Position numbers and translations under genes: made by a program. Positions 15,987-63,755 of a stretch of DNA of 64,000 nt are shown here, one piece after another; within the stretch, counting starts at the first letter, position 1; every line of letters begins with the position of its first letter. Where the stretch lies: NCBI RefSeq assembly GCF_004116465.1, contig NZ_PDJV01000013.1, positions 1-64,000 on the forward strand. Reading direction: 5' to 3'. The notes beneath the pieces are model-generated. The model was not told the DNA's origin and did not search any database. It was given only the letters and a program-made list of their open reading frames with translations. This DNA comes from Arcobacter sp. F2176 (GTDB taxonomy: Bacteria > Campylobacterota > Campylobacteria > Campylobacterales > Arcobacteraceae).

Positions 15987-16443
15987 TATAGTTTCCCTTC
16001 GAAATATTGTGGGTGATTTCTTTGTTACTTTCTTTTTGCCTGCAAGCAGGATTAACATCACAAAAGAAAGTCGAAATAAGTAAAGATGTACAGTAAAAAC
16101 TTATTTGAATAGTTCTAACTGTATGTAAACCTCTTGAAGAACATAGTTCTCCGCTTTCTCACTTTTTGTCCTTCGGAATTTAGTCGTTTCACTCCAGCAT
16201 AGTTGTAAAAAGTAAGACAAAAAGCAACCAGACGAGTTGTTGAAGCTAAAGTTCCCTCACACTTCACTTTTTAAAGCTAGCCTGCAAAACTCCTCGAAAA
16301 AGTGAGTTTATCACTTTTTTTTCGTCAAACAAGTTTCGGCTTTTTCCGCTTTAAAAGGTAAAGTGCTCGGCTTCAACAAAGTCTGGACTAAAATACCCTA
16401 GTCGCAAACTTTGTACTTAAAAGTAAAAGTAAAATTTAGGTAT
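15987..16443. other. Gene-free, hairpin-rich stretch
   Basis: About 460 bases without a supportable gene. A nested inverted repeat lies at 16027-16071: an outer stem ACTTTCTTTT/AAAAGAAAGT encloses CCTGC-AA-GCAGG. Further complementary tracts are CTTTTTGTC with GACAAAAAG (about 16163-16230) and CACTTTTT with AAAAAGTG (about 16260-16320). Base composition is more mixed than in the flanking genes. It looks like a decayed repetitive or mobile-element remnant, but I cannot name the family. Confidence 0.45.
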
Positions 16444-56646: not shown

Positions 56647-56815
56647 AAATTTATTTGATTTTATTTATTTCTTATGAATAGCATATGAATAATTTATGAA
56701 GTTTTTGTCATATTAATTAAATCTTTGATAAAAGAAGAAGATTAAGAAGAAGAGAGTGTTTAAGTGATAACGATAACCTTATATATCACTTCTTTTTATG
56801 ATTTATATTTAAAGT

Positions 56816-56864
56816 TGGCGACCCCATCAAGATTCGAACTTGAGTTTACAGGAGGAAATCCTAT
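56816..56864 (-). repeat. tRNA 3'-end fragment, probable integrase attachment site
   Basis: On the minus strand this reads as the 3' half of a tRNA. A T-arm (TCAAG-TTCGAAT-CTTGA, 56827-56843) is followed by TGGGGTC, G and CCA (56816-56826). A degenerate anticodon-like stem (CCTAT/ACAGG pairing, 56848-56864) lies before it. There is no 5' half or D-arm. The acceptor tail fits a tRNA starting GGCCCCA or GACCCCA, possibly tRNA-Glu. With the integrase 136 bases away it is best read as an att site. Confidence 0.7.
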
Positions 56865-56966
56865 AAACATATCATTTATTAAAATTTATTTAATTATATA
56901 TCATCCTTTTTATGGGATTATTAAATTCTTATTAATTTATTTCATACTATAATAATACATAAAAAG

Positions 56967-56999: not shown

Positions 57000-58106
57000 A
57001 TGGCAGTTAATAGAAAAGAGTTTATAAATAAGATAGATACAGGATTATATGCAAATGCGAAATATGATAAGTTTTATTTAAATTGTAAGGTTAACTACAA
57101 GGTTAAACAAAAAGTTTTTACATATACAAATCAGGTATGGGACAAAAAAACAAGAATCAAAAAAGCAAAGATTGATACACTTGAATACATTGATAAAATC
57201 AAAAATGATTCTCAAGAAACTAATTTTAATGAAAATATCAAACTAGATACTTTTATAAAACAATATTTTAACACTATGGAAGAGAGTAGCTCTTATAGTG
57301 GAAATAGATGGAAAATCTCTATTGTAAACTATTATAACAAACATATCAAAGATATAATCGGTAATAAAAAAATTAAGGACATAAGGCAAATACATATTAA
57401 GTCTATTATTAACAATGTTAAATCACTTGGACTAAGTGCTAGAAGTCAGAAAACTGCATTAGAGATATTAAATCCAGTATTTAAAAGTGCTATAGTTAAT
57501 AGAATTATATCATTTAATCCATGTGATGGTATTACAGTAAAAAGACCAAATACAAAAAAGAAAGTTCAAAATGCATCTGTATTATTAAAAGAGATATACA
57601 ATGCCATAATGACTATATTTAAAGATGACATATATTTTCAAGCTCTGTTTTTATTTGCATTACAAGGAAGACGAAGATCAGAAATATTGACACTTAGATG
57701 GGAATACATTGATTTTGATAACATGTCATATACTTTACCAAATACTAAAAATGGTGAAGAACAAACTTTTATTCTACCAGAATCGATCGCCCTACTCCTC
57801 TTAGCGATGGAAACAAATAAAAAACATTATGTTTTTGAATCTCCAACAGATTCAACATCTTATATTCAAAATATTCAAACTCAAACAAGAAAATTAAAAA
57901 AGGCATTAAATAATCCAAACTTTGGAATTCACTATTTGAGAAATGTAGTTGTATCAGCTATGGCAGAACAAGGAGTTAATGCAACTTATTTATCAGGAGC
58001 ATTAGGGCATTCTGATTTAAATACTATTAAAAAGTATTTATCAATACCTTATAAAAAAGGTTCTGAAGTTGCTAATGCAACTATTCAGCTTTTAACGGAA
58101 TCATAA
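57000..58106 (+). CDS. Phage-type tyrosine recombinase (integrase)
   Basis: A 368-aa tyrosine recombinase. The N-terminal arm-binding part (1-65) is followed by a SAM-like core-binding domain (about 80-170) and the catalytic domain (about 180-365). Catalytic residues are R in GRRRSEILTLRW (about 223), H-x-x-R in HYLRNVVVSAMA (about 310-313), H in LGHSDLNTIKKY (about 337) and the nucleophile Y (about 346). An adjacent tRNA fragment and AT-rich accessory genes to the right suggest that it belongs to a genomic island. Confidence 0.93.
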   Translation: MAVNRKEFINKIDTGLYANAKYDKFYLNCKVNYKVKQKVFTYTNQVWDKKTRIKKAKIDTLEYIDKIKNDSQETNFNENIKLDTFIKQYFNTMEESSSYSGNRWKISIVNYYNKHIKDIIGNKKIKDIRQIHIKSIINNVKSLGLSARSQKTALEILNPVFKSAIVNRIISFNPCDGITVKRPNTKKKVQNASVLLKEIYNAIMTIFKDDIYFQALFLFALQGRRRSEILTLRWEYIDFDNMSYTLPNTKNGEEQTFILPESIALLLLAMETNKKHYVFESPTDSTSYIQNIQTQTRKLKKALNNPNFGIHYLRNVVVSAMAEQGVNATYLSGALGHSDLNTIKKYLSIPYKKGSEVANATIQLLTES

Positions 58107-58204: not shown

Positions 58205-58945
58205 TTAGTTTTTTGTACAACTATTTGTAGAAGAGTCATAAAAATAACCCTCTTTAAATCTAACACCAATATCTTTCAAATTTAGAGTTATCACTTCATC
58301 TTCATTATTTGAACTTAAAACATAGTGAAAATATGATTTAAATTTGTTTTGTGAAGTACTAACACTATCTGTTGTTTTTGTGTATTCAACTGTTAAACGT
58401 GAATCTGTAATATTCCATGCACTCGTATTTGGCATTTGATTTCTAAGAAAAATATATGCTTTTTTTGATGATTTTGAAAATCCTGCCCACGTGGCTGTTG
58501 TTACACTATTGCCATAAATTGCATACCTAGAATTAACTTCAGAAGATAAAGCATCATCTACATAAACTTTATAATCTAAATGAACTATTCTATCAATATT
58601 TTCAGAAATAACATCTGTATATTTAGTAACTCCTACTGAATCTTGAGGTACAGTATAGTCACCAAAAGTATAAACCTTTCTATAAACTGGTTTCCCTAAA
58701 TAAACCTTATTAGTCAAAGTCTCTTCTTTAGAATAAATATCTTGCCCTACTCCATTTTGCTTTGCAATACTTTCTAAATTATTAGAAAAACTATAACTTT
58801 TAATACATTCTTTTGTCTCTGTTCCATCATTATTTGTAATTGTTAGTTCATAATCAGCACTTAAAGATAGTGAACATAATAAGCCTATAATTATTGTTAA
58901 TAAAATTCTTTTACCTGCTAGCAGGATTCCATTTCTTTCCATCAT
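58205..58945 (-). CDS. Secreted paralog 1 with phage tail-fibre-like core
   Basis: A 246-aa exported protein (signal about 8-32, start MMERNGILLAGKRILL) and third in a tandem family of three. The N-terminal conserved part has CIKSYSFSNNLES and LTNKVYLGKPVYRKV. The core (about 90-185) contains NIDRIVHLDYKVYV and SRYAIYGNSV and ends VEYTKTTD. The C-terminus ends YDSSTNSCTKN. GKPVYRK followed by a variable beta region and YTKTTD is a pattern I know from phage tail-fibre/receptor-binding proteins. The family function is unknown. Cysteines near both ends could form a disulfide. Confidence 0.7.
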   Translation of the reverse strand: MMERNGILLAGKRILLTIIIGLLCSLSLSADYELTITNNDGTETKECIKSYSFSNNLESIAKQNGVGQDIYSKEETLTNKVYLGKPVYRKVYTFGDYTVPQDSVGVTKYTDVISENIDRIVHLDYKVYVDDALSSEVNSRYAIYGNSVTTATWAGFSKSSKKAYIFLRNQMPNTSAWNITDSRLTVEYTKTTDSVSTSQNKFKSYFHYVLSSNNEDEVITLNLKDIGVRFKEGYFYDSSTNSCTKN

Positions 58946-58972
58946 TTCTTATCCTTTTTTTAATTTATATAT

Positions 58973-59665
58973 TTAATTTTTTGTACAACTGTTAGTTGAA
59001 GCATCGTATGTATAGTTTTTTTGAAGTCTAATACCAGCATCATCCATTGATTTAGTGATATACTCATTAGTTGTAGAATCACTTGGTAAGTAGTGAACTA
59101 AAGTTGTTAATTCATTTGGATTAGTTTGTGCTGTGTCTGTTGTTTTTGTGTATTCTACTATAAAATTTACATCTGATAATTTATTTTTATAATTAATAGA
59201 ACTGACAAATCTATAATAATTTTTATATATTAAATCTCGAAATTGATTTTCAGATGTATGGATAAATCCATAAGTTTTATTAACACTACCAAAATGTATC
59301 GCAGAAATTTGAGTCTCCATATTGTTAATATTAAAATTTACATTTTTCCAAACATTATTATTATTTGCAAAAGAACTTAAATCACCAAGTTTAACTATCT
59401 TCCTAAAAACTGGTTTACCCATAAAAACTTTATTCGTCAAAGTTTCTTCTTCTGAATAAATATCTTTTTGATTTACTTTTTTTTGTAAGCTCTCCAAGTT
59501 ATTAGAAAAGCTATAACTTTTCACACAAAGACTCTCTTCTGTTCCATTTTTATCTGTAAGTGTCATCAAAAAATCAGCTTGGGCTGAGACTAATAATGCA
59601 GAACTTAGCATTAGGGATTTAATTATCTTTTTACCTATAAATAGGATTCCACTTTGTTTCATCAT
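58973..59665 (-). CDS. Secreted paralog 2 with variable core
   Basis: A 230-aa exported protein, start MMKQSGILFIGKKI. It shares CVKSYSFSNNLESL, FMGKPVFRKIV, VEYTKTTDTAQTN and YDASTNSCTKN with its neighbours. The region about 95-165 differs strongly from the other two copies (NNVWKNVNFNINNMETQ, SAIHFGSVNKTYGFIHTS). It lies 13 bases after paralog 3 and 27 before paralog 1, in one operon. Confidence 0.7.
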   Translation of the reverse strand: MMKQSGILFIGKKIIKSLMLSSALLVSAQADFLMTLTDKNGTEESLCVKSYSFSNNLESLQKKVNQKDIYSEEETLTNKVFMGKPVFRKIVKLGDLSSFANNNNVWKNVNFNINNMETQISAIHFGSVNKTYGFIHTSENQFRDLIYKNYYRFVSSINYKNKLSDVNFIVEYTKTTDTAQTNPNELTTLVHYLPSDSTTNEYITKSMDDAGIRLQKNYTYDASTNSCTKN

Positions 59666-59677
59666 TTTATTTCCTTA

Positions 59678-60364
59678 TTAATTTGCTGGTGCTATACAAG
59701 AATTTGTTGAAGCATCGTATGTGTAGTTATTTAGAAATCTAATACCAGTTTCGTTTAATGATTTAGTTACGTATTCTCCATTTGAAGAGTCACTTGGTAA
59801 GTAGTGGACTAAAGTTGTTAGTTCATTTGTATTAGTTTGAGCTGTGTCTGTTGTTTTTATATACTCCAGAATAATAGAAAGATTATTTAGATTTACCAAC
59901 TTTCCAAGCCTATAACTAATTTTATCTCCGTCTATCCTATATACAAAAGAATTCTCTGATGTGCCCCATCTACTCATAGCTGAAAAATTTGTACCTATGA
60001 TACGAGCATCAAAAAGTTTATCCATATTTTTAGGTGGATTTTCATAAGGAGTATACCTCCAGTTTCTATCACTAATTAAATTAGGCATTTTAACAATTTT
60101 TCTATACACAGGCTTTCCAAGATATATCTTATTCGTCAAAGTTTCTTCAGTAGAATAAATGTCCTTTTGTTTTACTTCTTTATGTAAACTCTCCAAGTTA
60201 TTTGAAAAGCTATAGCTTTTTACACAAAGGTTTTCTTCAACTCCTGCTTTATCTGTAAGTGTCATCAAAAAATCAGCTTGAGCTGATGCCAATACAATAC
60301 TTCCTACTAATAATCCTTTGATTATTTTTTTACCCGCTAGCAGGATTCCATCTTTTTCCATCAT
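59678..60364 (-). CDS. Secreted paralog 3 with variable core
   Basis: A 228-aa exported protein, start MMEKDGILLAGKKIIKGL, the first gene of the three. The ends match paralog 2 closely (LTTLVHYLPSDS, YTYDASTNSC) and the core differs (NWRYTPYENPPKNMDKLFDA, MSRWGTSENSF). The DNA of the flanking parts is also alike between copies 2 and 3, which implies recent duplication followed by core divergence or exchange. A good ribosome binding site (AAGGAG) precedes the ATG. Confidence 0.7.
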   Translation of the reverse strand: MMEKDGILLAGKKIIKGLLVGSIVLASAQADFLMTLTDKAGVEENLCVKSYSFSNNLESLHKEVKQKDIYSTEETLTNKIYLGKPVYRKIVKMPNLISDRNWRYTPYENPPKNMDKLFDARIIGTNFSAMSRWGTSENSFVYRIDGDKISYRLGKLVNLNNLSIILEYIKTTDTAQTNTNELTTLVHYLPSDSSNGEYVTKSLNETGIRFLNNYTYDASTNSCIAPAN

Positions 60365-60580: not shown

Positions 60581-61462
60581 ATGTTAAAAAATAGTTCTAA
60601 ACAGTTACTAAAATTTATTTTAGTTATGTTTTTCAGTTTTTCATTTAGTATCTCTGCCTTTGCAGAAACAGAAAATGGAGCAATTGTAGGAAATAATAGT
60701 TATGCAACCGCTTATTCAATGGGATATTGGAAATATGCTTCTTCAACAATTTGTAACTTAAAGGCAGGACAAGATGAAGCTTATTTTAAGTTTACTGCAT
60801 ATAAAGGAGATAGATTATATGTCAGAACTTCTTATGATAGTGATTATCAAGGTATGTTTCTAGAAGTATTAAATAATAATTATACTACTGTTGATAGTAG
60901 TGGAAATGTAGTTGATCCAGGTGCAATACTTTCTTTTATATATGTATCAAAAATAAATGCTACTTCAAACTCACAAAATTTTTATATTAGAATTAAAAGA
61001 GGTAATTATACAGGTGATATGATTTTTTCAATCAATGTTGAGGATAGAATAAAGTCAAGTAGTGGTAAATTTAACTTTAATGGTACAGCTTCAAATTCAG
61101 GAAACCCAGATATATTGACCAATCCTAATGGTGTTGATTCTTCTATCATATCGATGGATCTTACTAATAATTCAACTATCCCAAATGGTGCAGTTGTTAA
61201 ATCTATTACAACTTCAGGTAATCTATCACGAAATTTGGGAGGAATTACACATGAAATCTTACCTTCTCAAACAAATGATTGGTACTTATCTACTGTAGCT
61301 AGTGCAAGAACTGGATATTATAATATAGATTTATCAAATGAATTAAATGTTGCCCAAAAATGGGATTTTAGATATAATGCTTTAGCAAGAAGTTCATCTA
61401 CAATGAGTGATGTTAAAGCAACTATTAATTATGAATACGATTTAACTAAGGCCTTTGAATAG
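60581..61462 (+). CDS. Secreted protein with a pre-peptidase-like N-terminal domain
   Basis: A 293-aa exported protein (signal about 1-29, ending ISAFAET). Residues of about 35-155 look like a beta-sandwich (IVGNNSYATAYSMGYWKYAS, EAYFKFTAYKGDRLYVRTSY), similar to bacterial pre-peptidase C-terminal domains. Residues of about 160-293 are a second beta-rich domain with GNLSRNLGGITHEI and ATINYEYDL. There are no protease motifs. It is divergent from the three secreted paralogs. The function is unknown. Confidence 0.65.
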   Translation: MLKNSSKQLLKFILVMFFSFSFSISAFAETENGAIVGNNSYATAYSMGYWKYASSTICNLKAGQDEAYFKFTAYKGDRLYVRTSYDSDYQGMFLEVLNNNYTTVDSSGNVVDPGAILSFIYVSKINATSNSQNFYIRIKRGNYTGDMIFSINVEDRIKSSSGKFNFNGTASNSGNPDILTNPNGVDSSIISMDLTNNSTIPNGAVVKSITTSGNLSRNLGGITHEILPSQTNDWYLSTVASARTGYYNIDLSNELNVAQKWDFRYNALARSSSTMSDVKATINYEYDLTKAFE

Positions 61463-62856: not shown

Positions 62857-63366
62857 TTAGTTTATTGTTAAAGTATTAAAAAAAACTATTGGCTTATCTT
62901 TTTTTTGAAGGAGGATAGCATATATTTTTTTATTGACTTTTGATTGAGAAACTTTAAACTTAAAAATATCACTATCAAGCTTATCTACAAAAGCATCATT
63001 AAAAAAAGAGTCTAATACTTCTCTTTCATTGAACTTATATAGACTCTCTATTCGAAGTAGATTTTTATCTTGTGAGATTATATATGTAACATATCTATAA
63101 AAAGGATTATGATACATATCATTTGTCTGTATTTTTAAAATGCTATTTGAAGACCTATCAAAAGTTATTTCGATACTTTTTGCTTTTGCTATATCTTCAT
63201 AGTATAAGGCTTTTAGTTTATTACTTGATTCTAGTGTATCGAGTTTTTTTTCATAGAAGAAGTTACTTTGCTTGGTAAGGTCCAAAGCTTTATATAAAAA
63301 GACGAGAATAAGAGAAAAAAGTGTGATACTAATAAGTATCTCTATTAGAGTAAAACCTTTTTTCAT
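62857..63366 (-). CDS. Type II secretion/type IV pilus pseudopilin (GspJ/PilW-like)
   Basis: A 169-aa prepilin-like protein with a short leader cut by prepilin peptidase, KKG|FTLIEILISITLF, and the conserved E5. The hydrophobic helix is about residues 5-25. The rest is a small alpha/beta domain (LLRIESLYKFNEREVLDSFF). It overlaps the upstream pseudopilin gene by 4 bases. Confidence 0.85.
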   Translation of the reverse strand: MKKGFTLIEILISITLFSLILVFLYKALDLTKQSNFFYEKKLDTLESSNKLKALYYEDIAKAKSIEITFDRSSNSILKIQTNDMYHNPFYRYVTYIISQDKNLLRIESLYKFNEREVLDSFFNDAFVDKLDSDIFKFKVSQSKVNKKIYAILLQKKDKPIVFFNTLTIN

Positions 63367-63755
63367 TTGTCTATCTTTATAGTATAAAACTTCTTTTTTA
63401 TACTGTTCTTTATGGAATATGAATTCTCTATTTGCTTAAAAGAAAAGGGTGTGTTTTCTAACTCTTTTGTTTCCAAAGTTTTATCTTTTATATTTATATT
63501 TGTAGCTTTTGTTTGTTTTTTTAGCTCTTCATCATTTAATGTTAGATTTTCATCTATAGCAAGATTTTTGTTTCTATTATTACTTGCTTGATAATTTAGA
63601 GCATAAAGACTTATGTAAGCTTGATTTAGTTTGCTTACATCACTTTTTTCTATAATAAATAAGTTATTTTGTTTGATTTTAATGAGTGAGCCAATAACTA
63701 CTGTTATAATAATGATAGATATAAGAACTTCTATAAGAGAAAGAGCTTTTTTCAT
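63363..63755 (-). CDS. Type II secretion/type IV pilus pseudopilin (GspI/PilV-like)
   Basis: A 130-aa prepilin-like protein, KKALSLIEVLISIIIITVV, with the conserved E5 after the probable cleavage site (A|L in place of G|F). It begins 2 bases after the stop of the ATPase gene upstream. Confidence 0.82.
   Translation of the reverse strand: MKKALSLIEVLISIIIITVVIGSLIKIKQNNLFIIEKSDVSKLNQAYISLYALNYQASNNRNKNLAIDENLTLNDEELKKQTKATNINIKDKTLETKELENTPFSFKQIENSYSIKNSIKKKFYTIKIDK

Follow-up and report, generated by a model that had tools for sequence, protein, structure and literature searches.

What are the products of three adjacent genes that share both of their ends, differ widely in their middles and lie beside an integrase, and how has this difference arisen? 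The question is raised by a locus of Arcobacter sp. F2176 within bases 1-64000 (the window) of a 72.7-kb contig belonging to a 3.27-Mb genome. An initial annotation of this DNA had regarded the genes as tandem secreted paralogs with tail-fibre-like cores, possibly exported binding modules that had diversified in place.

The gene array and its surroundings

The array is encoded on the minus strand. Gene 1 (58205-58945) specifies a secreted protein of 246 amino acids in which a tail-fibre-like module stands within a conserved N- and C-terminal frame, and it is followed by two paralogs, gene 2 (58973-59665; 230 amino acids) and gene 3 (59678-60364; 228 amino acids), the latter bearing a core akin to that of a protein from Arcobacter SZUA-449. 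Only 27 bases separate genes 1 and 2, and 12 bases genes 2 and 3; a search of the genome returned no copy beyond these three. Alignment of the proteins recovered all of the motifs listed initially, namely a common N-terminal region, C[IV]KSYSFSNNLES, GKPV[YF]RK, EY[TI]KTTD and NSC, with the amendments that gene 3 reads EYIKTTD instead of YTKTTD and that NSC is near the C-terminus rather than exactly terminal, 3-5 residues following it. The shared signal-peptide region is likewise present as a common N-terminal region, but it hides a separate 36-bp leader element that is found on many unrelated genes. Read by eye, the N-termini are Sec-like signals that end in A-D[YF] and lack a lipobox. The conserved N-terminal piece carries one cysteine and the conserved C-terminal piece a second.

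The middles do differ as widely as had been claimed. GKPVYRK and EYTKTTD are 96, 81 and 77 residues apart in genes 1, 2 and 3, respectively, and the intervening sequences are mostly unalignable; compared with shuffled sequences, the cores of genes 1 and 2 score z=1.5, those of genes 1 and 3 z=-0.3, and those of genes 2 and 3, at 33% identity, z=5.0. Flank identity among the three is 68-82% on the N side and 43-75% on the C side. On these figures, the pattern of conserved ends around a variable core is far beyond chance. The flanks of the paralogs show purifying dN/dS ratios. Neither the proteins nor the module matched a Pfam, PHROG or NCBIfam family or a PDB sequence.

The neighbours of the array are not those of a phage structural operon, but comprise the integrase, a divergent secreted-looking gene, a DUF4885 gene and a secretion cluster. 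The tyrosine-type integrase is indeed present (57000-58106, plus strand; Phage_integrase, E=1.3e-17), ending 99 bases from gene 1, and is adjoined by a remnant resembling the 3' end of a tRNA (56815-56870, minus strand; read by eye). This remnant is likely an old integration scar, although ARAGORN called no tRNA there and a search of the contig found no second copy that would constitute an att repeat. On the other side of the array, a divergent gene (60581-61462) encodes a secreted-looking protein of 293 amino acids with no Pfam, PHROG or NCBIfam match at E<=1. Two pseudopilin-like genes (62857-63755, minus strand) stand at the margin of a type II secretion cluster, which extends out of the window and takes in locus L230; in this cluster, GspD and GspG score above the NCBIfam cut-offs and a GspF-like protein below its own.

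Relatives of the array are few. A search of 60 relatives matched gene 2 to a pair of genes in Arcobacter sp. EP1 (31-48% identity), a weak match in genome G001 (E=0.008) not being counted. An empty site for the array is unreadable in G001, where the DUF4885 ortholog has other surroundings. Of 397 genomes of the class, a six-sequence profile matched two, the present genome and EP1; SZUA-449 came to light in a genome scan, together with five loci that have the module alone and are of Bacillota, Treponema and Tenericutes type. Among the genomes scanned, relatives were thus confined to two other Arcobacter genomes, and annotated phages and plasmids yielded no relative of gene 2. The variation between genomes that had been anticipated is borne out, since copy number is three here, two in EP1 (in tandem) and one in SZUA-449, and the cores differ. 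The EP1 and SZUA-449 copies lie between a protease-like (sppA-like) and an acetate-kinase-like (ackA-like) gene, both named by eye and of housekeeping-like character, and the association with an integrase is therefore not a conserved one.

A module shared with phage tail fibres

The module extends from DIYS to KTTD and occupies about residues 69-193 of gene 1 (58367-58741), 68-177 of gene 2 (59135-59464) and 68-173 of gene 3 (59846-60163), all on the minus strand. Scans of viral contigs revealed relatives encoded at 28 and 29 loci (tblastn E<=1e-3, E values being relative to the candidate stretches only), which upholds the original association of GKPVYRK and YTKTTD with tail fibres. As judged from the reading frames, the common unit comprises about 100-118 residues, DIYSTEE..TNKVWIDGKPIYRK ... 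EYTKTTD, and is mostly terminal in phage proteins that also bear collagen-like or collar-like parts. These are the collar/collagen-repeat and short fibre genes of gut phages in IMG/VR (L012-L073), whose module, YS..E..GKP[IVL]YRK...EYTKTTD, is homologous to that of the array at both ends.

The gut phage modules resemble the array further in their variable cores and, in some loci (L046, L047, L049 and L064), in the presence of tandem paralogs. In L042, L046 and L049 the modules constitute one to three short tandem genes (three in L046, two in L049), in L064 they are borne by neighbouring proteins, and in L042 and L046 they directly precede genes that appear by eye to be holin-like and amidase-like. 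Given these layouts, constant ends, a variable core and tandem copies are also features of phages, although the 40 phage modules compared were picked by a pattern holding the conserved ends, such that the invariance of the ends is partly by construction. Unlike the array proteins, the phage proteins display no visible signal peptide and neither the KSYSFSNNLES nor the NSC part of the frame, and most of the 40 stop at or soon after KTTD. Judged by its sequence, the DIYS-to-KTTD stretch is homologous to gut-phage tail-fibre modules.

Predicted fold

An AlphaFold model of gene 1, built on an alignment of six bacterial proteins and the 40 phage modules, is all beta (mean pLDDT 81.4, pTM 0.57). The top-ranked of 1000 chains re-aligned by VIA was the R1 pyocin fibre foot (Z 6.4, rmsd 3.4, 96 aligned residues, model residues 68-189). 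A phage module modelled alone (pLDDT 89.2) gave as its two best rows pseudaminidase/neuraminidase entries of P. aeruginosa, which are not fibres (Z 7.7 and 7.3), followed by the R1/R2 pyocin feet (Z 6.5-6.2) and AP22 gp53 (Z 5.7). The two models are not independent of each other, as the phage modules entered both, and the search bears on the module, the conserved N- and C-terminal pieces being barely covered. Among viral structures in BFVD, three proteins matched at E<=0.001, each being either a phage protein or a viral protein without a name, and one of them a collagen-named siphovirus protein; a named tail fibre protein followed at 6.3e-3. The structural comparison suggested at the outset puts R-pyocin feet in or near first place for both models, but every VIA Z is below 8 and Foldseek found no PDB match at E<=0.001 for either model. 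For these reasons a fibre-tip jelly-roll fold is supported by the models, not proven.

The R-pyocin foot is, according to excerpts of PMC6363177, a discoidin-like lectin jelly roll, and its variable loops are not the same in all subtypes; on that description, it is a conserved scaffold with variable loops, a likeness to the array proteins. The R1/R2 pyocin feet (PDB 6cxb, 6cl5, 6cl6 and 6ct8) and AP22 gp53 (4mtm) also share with the predicted array module a similar beta-sandwich size and strand content, although at Z below 8 and with no detectable sequence family link. Their domain forms the tip of a tail-borne fibre, whereas that of the array is carried within a protein bearing a Sec-type signal.

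The models also lend something to another explanation, in which the array proteins are ordinary surface adhesins and their likeness to fibre tips reflects a common beta-sandwich arrangement with no phage ancestry. Collagen-binding and antigen I/II adhesin domains matched the gene 1 model nearly as well as did the fibre proteins (Z 5.0-5.4). The sequence-level phage matches at both ends of the module speak against this explanation, which we consider unlikely.

Exchange of the variable core

Genes 2 and 3 are 82% identical in the N-flank and 75% in the C-flank, but only 33% in the core. The core of gene 3 finds its best partner instead in SZUA-449, with which it shares 49% identity (z=18.1 relative to shuffles; no other core pair exceeds z=5.0), although the flanks of these two proteins are only 63% and 43% identical. 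In a four-taxon test, the N-flank, the C-flank and both joined each grouped genes 2 and 3 apart from gene 1 and SZUA-449 in 1000 of 1000 bootstraps, whereas the core grouped gene 3 with SZUA-449 apart from genes 1 and 2 in 949 of 1000; the poor alignment of the gene 1 core weakens this core tree, but not the match between gene 3 and SZUA-449. Since the two flanks agree with each other and conflict with the core, the core appears, from these alignments, to have been exchanged as a cassette between conserved flanks. Diversification in place is hence part of the story at most, the core of gene 3 matching the single gene of another species. As for the gene conversion that had been suspected, the flank dS of about 0.5-2.5 shows that any exchange by conversion would not be recent.

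Proposed function and alternatives

That these are secreted array proteins with a phage-fibre-type module and an exchanged core can be stated with confidence as a matter of anatomy. We are moderately confident, from the models, that they are lectin-like binders. The reading that we prefer, to which we assign a probability of roughly 0.6, is that the array encodes secreted, lectin-like binders derived from a phage receptor-binding domain that has been domesticated, with ligand and role surmised. In such a small array, each protein would be exported by its Sec-like signal, and its N- and C-terminal pieces would pack together, perhaps through a C47-C243 disulfide, and thereby display the module outside of the cell. 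The module, putatively a domesticated tail-fibre tip of the lectin-like jelly-roll type, would bind a surface glycan, and the swapping of its core could change binding specificity while the carrier remains constant. By its position, the neighbouring type II secretion cluster may move the folded proteins across the outer membrane, and genes 1-3 may be its substrates, although no secretion cluster adjoins the EP1 relatives in the stretch read.

Phage tails are known to be reused by bacteria as weapons. A defensive use of the fibre-tip domains, by which they bind the producer's own glycans and so block phages, with cores swapped to follow the phages, would accommodate the kinship of the module with phage fibres, the cassette exchange and the patchy distribution of relatives. 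Self-binding is purely hypothetical, however, and no phage of the host with the same module was found among annotated phages, leaving such receptor masking a long shot. Less probable still is a part in a toxin or kin-recognition system whose specificity parts vary; such a system too would show a variable core in a constant frame and a tandem array, but here it is an internal, fibre-tip-like stretch that varies, the proteins keep a conserved C-terminus and no immunity-like partner gene is evident beside any copy. That a prophage was lost here and left its tail-fibre genes to decay next to its integrase, as the adjoining integrase and tRNA-like remnant might suggest, is highly improbable and largely refuted by the intact frames of the genes, by signal peptides, by a cysteine frame kept in three genomes, by the other genomic location of the relatives and by purifying selection on the flanks.

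If the preferred reading of secreted, phage-derived binding proteins is true, a lone exported fibre-tip domain in a constant cysteine frame, with a core swapped as a cassette, would represent a compact and evolvable secreted binding scaffold. Each copy in this genome also carries the 36-bp start leader that the family has added to many genes.

A leader element at gene starts

The first 12 codons of genes 1-3 form this 36-bp leader, with the consensus MMKQSGIL[FL][TA]GK and a palindromic core: CCTGCTAGCAGG in gene 1 (58910-58945), CCTATTTATAGG in gene 2 (59630-59665) and CCTGCTAGCGGG in gene 3 (60329-60364), all on the minus strand. The three genes accordingly start with ten more codons than their EP1 and SZUA-449 relatives. 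Elsewhere in the genome, the leader DNA matches exactly at the starts of genes for a LivM-type permease and a DctP-type binding protein, and the leader loci assembled comprise the window copies, L077, L078 and about 40 loci of relatives. Between the leader of gene 1 and that of an OmpA gene in another species of the genus (G002), only 1 of 36 positions differs.

Several searches point to the same placement. With the core pattern lacking ATG and at most one mismatch, all five matches in the genome were at gene starts; with two mismatches, nine further matches were not gene starts, and controls gave 8 matches in all. With ATG included, the pattern was matched 62 times across 104 family genomes, in 33 of them, against 12 control matches. 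From these matches and those of the DNA search in the present genome, 37 leaders were aligned, the 25 of the 62 that were left out including both chance-like matches and real leaders with cores such as CCCATTTATGGG. A covariance model of the 37 copies listed 79 matches (E<=7.2e-4), 73 of which begin an open reading frame of at least 70 codons by an automatic rule; among the others listed, three resemble gene starts preceded by an in-frame start codon and three do not. As the model includes the start codons, its hits lean to gene starts, a bias from which the patterns lacking ATG are free. Of the 43 family genomes in the class sample, 12 have such a pattern, at 27 places, among them 22 at gene starts, three intergenic (all in G100) and one inside a gene; the 354 genomes of the class outside the family gave 7 matches, none of them at a gene start. 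Control matches numbered 3. Given these 22 gene starts versus none, the leader is confined to Arcobacteraceae as far as tested.

The genes concerned have little in common. Ten that were checked have ten different sets of Pfam families, and their products are both exported (ModA-type, TonB receptor, DctP, OmpA and YceI) and cytoplasmic (MnmA-type, formyl transferase, response regulator and NAD-binding dehydrogenase). Searches of plasmids and phages gave only short, chance-level matches to the leader (E of 2 or more), Rfam gave none for the leader or its intergenic relatives, and literature searches found no description of the start leader or of the protein motifs; excerpts of PMC6429828 report an analysis of intergenic regions in Arcobacter sp. 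L.

Nature of the leader

Orthologs of livM reveal both states of the site. Starts are filled in G000 and G100, and empty sites in G001, G014, G004 and G017 cleanly lack the 30 nt, with a few further bases differing at the ribosome-binding site and no clear duplication. The codons ATC and CTG are kept in the leader, even though CTG represents only 0.8% of leucine codons in the window, which points to copying or constraint at the level of DNA. The pairs of the 12-bp palindromic core co-vary: 93% of cells are paired and 15 cells have changed on both sides (related rows in this count not being independent), a degree of pairing reached in none of 500 shuffles and well above that of slid controls (20-42%). 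The variant CCCATTTATGGG and the shortened CCCTATGGG keep the palindrome. Hairpins of the transcript have 4 bp and, at -2.4 to -3.7 kcal/mol, are not more stable than those of shuffled sequences, and a stable RNA structure was set aside as the cause; a DNA palindrome is possible.

The core is also met between genes. Intergenic inverted repeats carry it (AATCCTGYTTGCAGGYAAAAA) between longer, differing arms, both in the window (16027-16071) and in L170, L186, L188, L195 and L197; L202 looks like an inverted repeat without the core. The intergenic core relatives of G100 are similarly embedded in longer inverted repeats. A second dispersed repeat, TTTTCTCAAAGAGAGTGCAAGCACAAG, of 25-33 nt and high identity, is present in or between genes of many family genomes (L198-L223).

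With many in-frame copies in unrelated genes and empty sites in orthologs, the leader behaves as do coding repeats of the RPE or MITE type. Judging from excerpts of PMC2229807 and PMC10969869, it shares with Rickettsia palindromic elements and other small coding repeats a dispersed, palindromic and in-frame occurrence in unrelated genes, as well as intergenic relatives of its core. According to the same excerpts, Rickettsia palindromic elements measure about 100-150 bp and lie inside the gene, whereas the leader measures 30-36 bp, lies at the start codon and supplies it. It is best read as a dispersed palindromic element retained at start codons, which may be mobile. The stronger proposition, for which we see even odds, is that Arcobacteraceae carry a mobile 'start-codon cassette', a palindromic element of 30-36 bp (ATGATGAAACAAAGTGGAATCCTGYTTRCAGGTAAA) that inserts exactly at gene starts, either behind the native ATG or in its place, lengthens the protein by ten residues and has reached dozens of unrelated genes, genes 1-3 among them.

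As what seems to be a start-codon element that is dispersed and undescribed, the leader is more novel than the secreted proteins on which it was found. If mobile, it would be a DNA element that repeatedly rewrites protein N-termini exactly at the start codon. It would then change both the annotation and the evolution of gene starts and signal peptides in Arcobacteraceae, and would matter more widely than the array itself.
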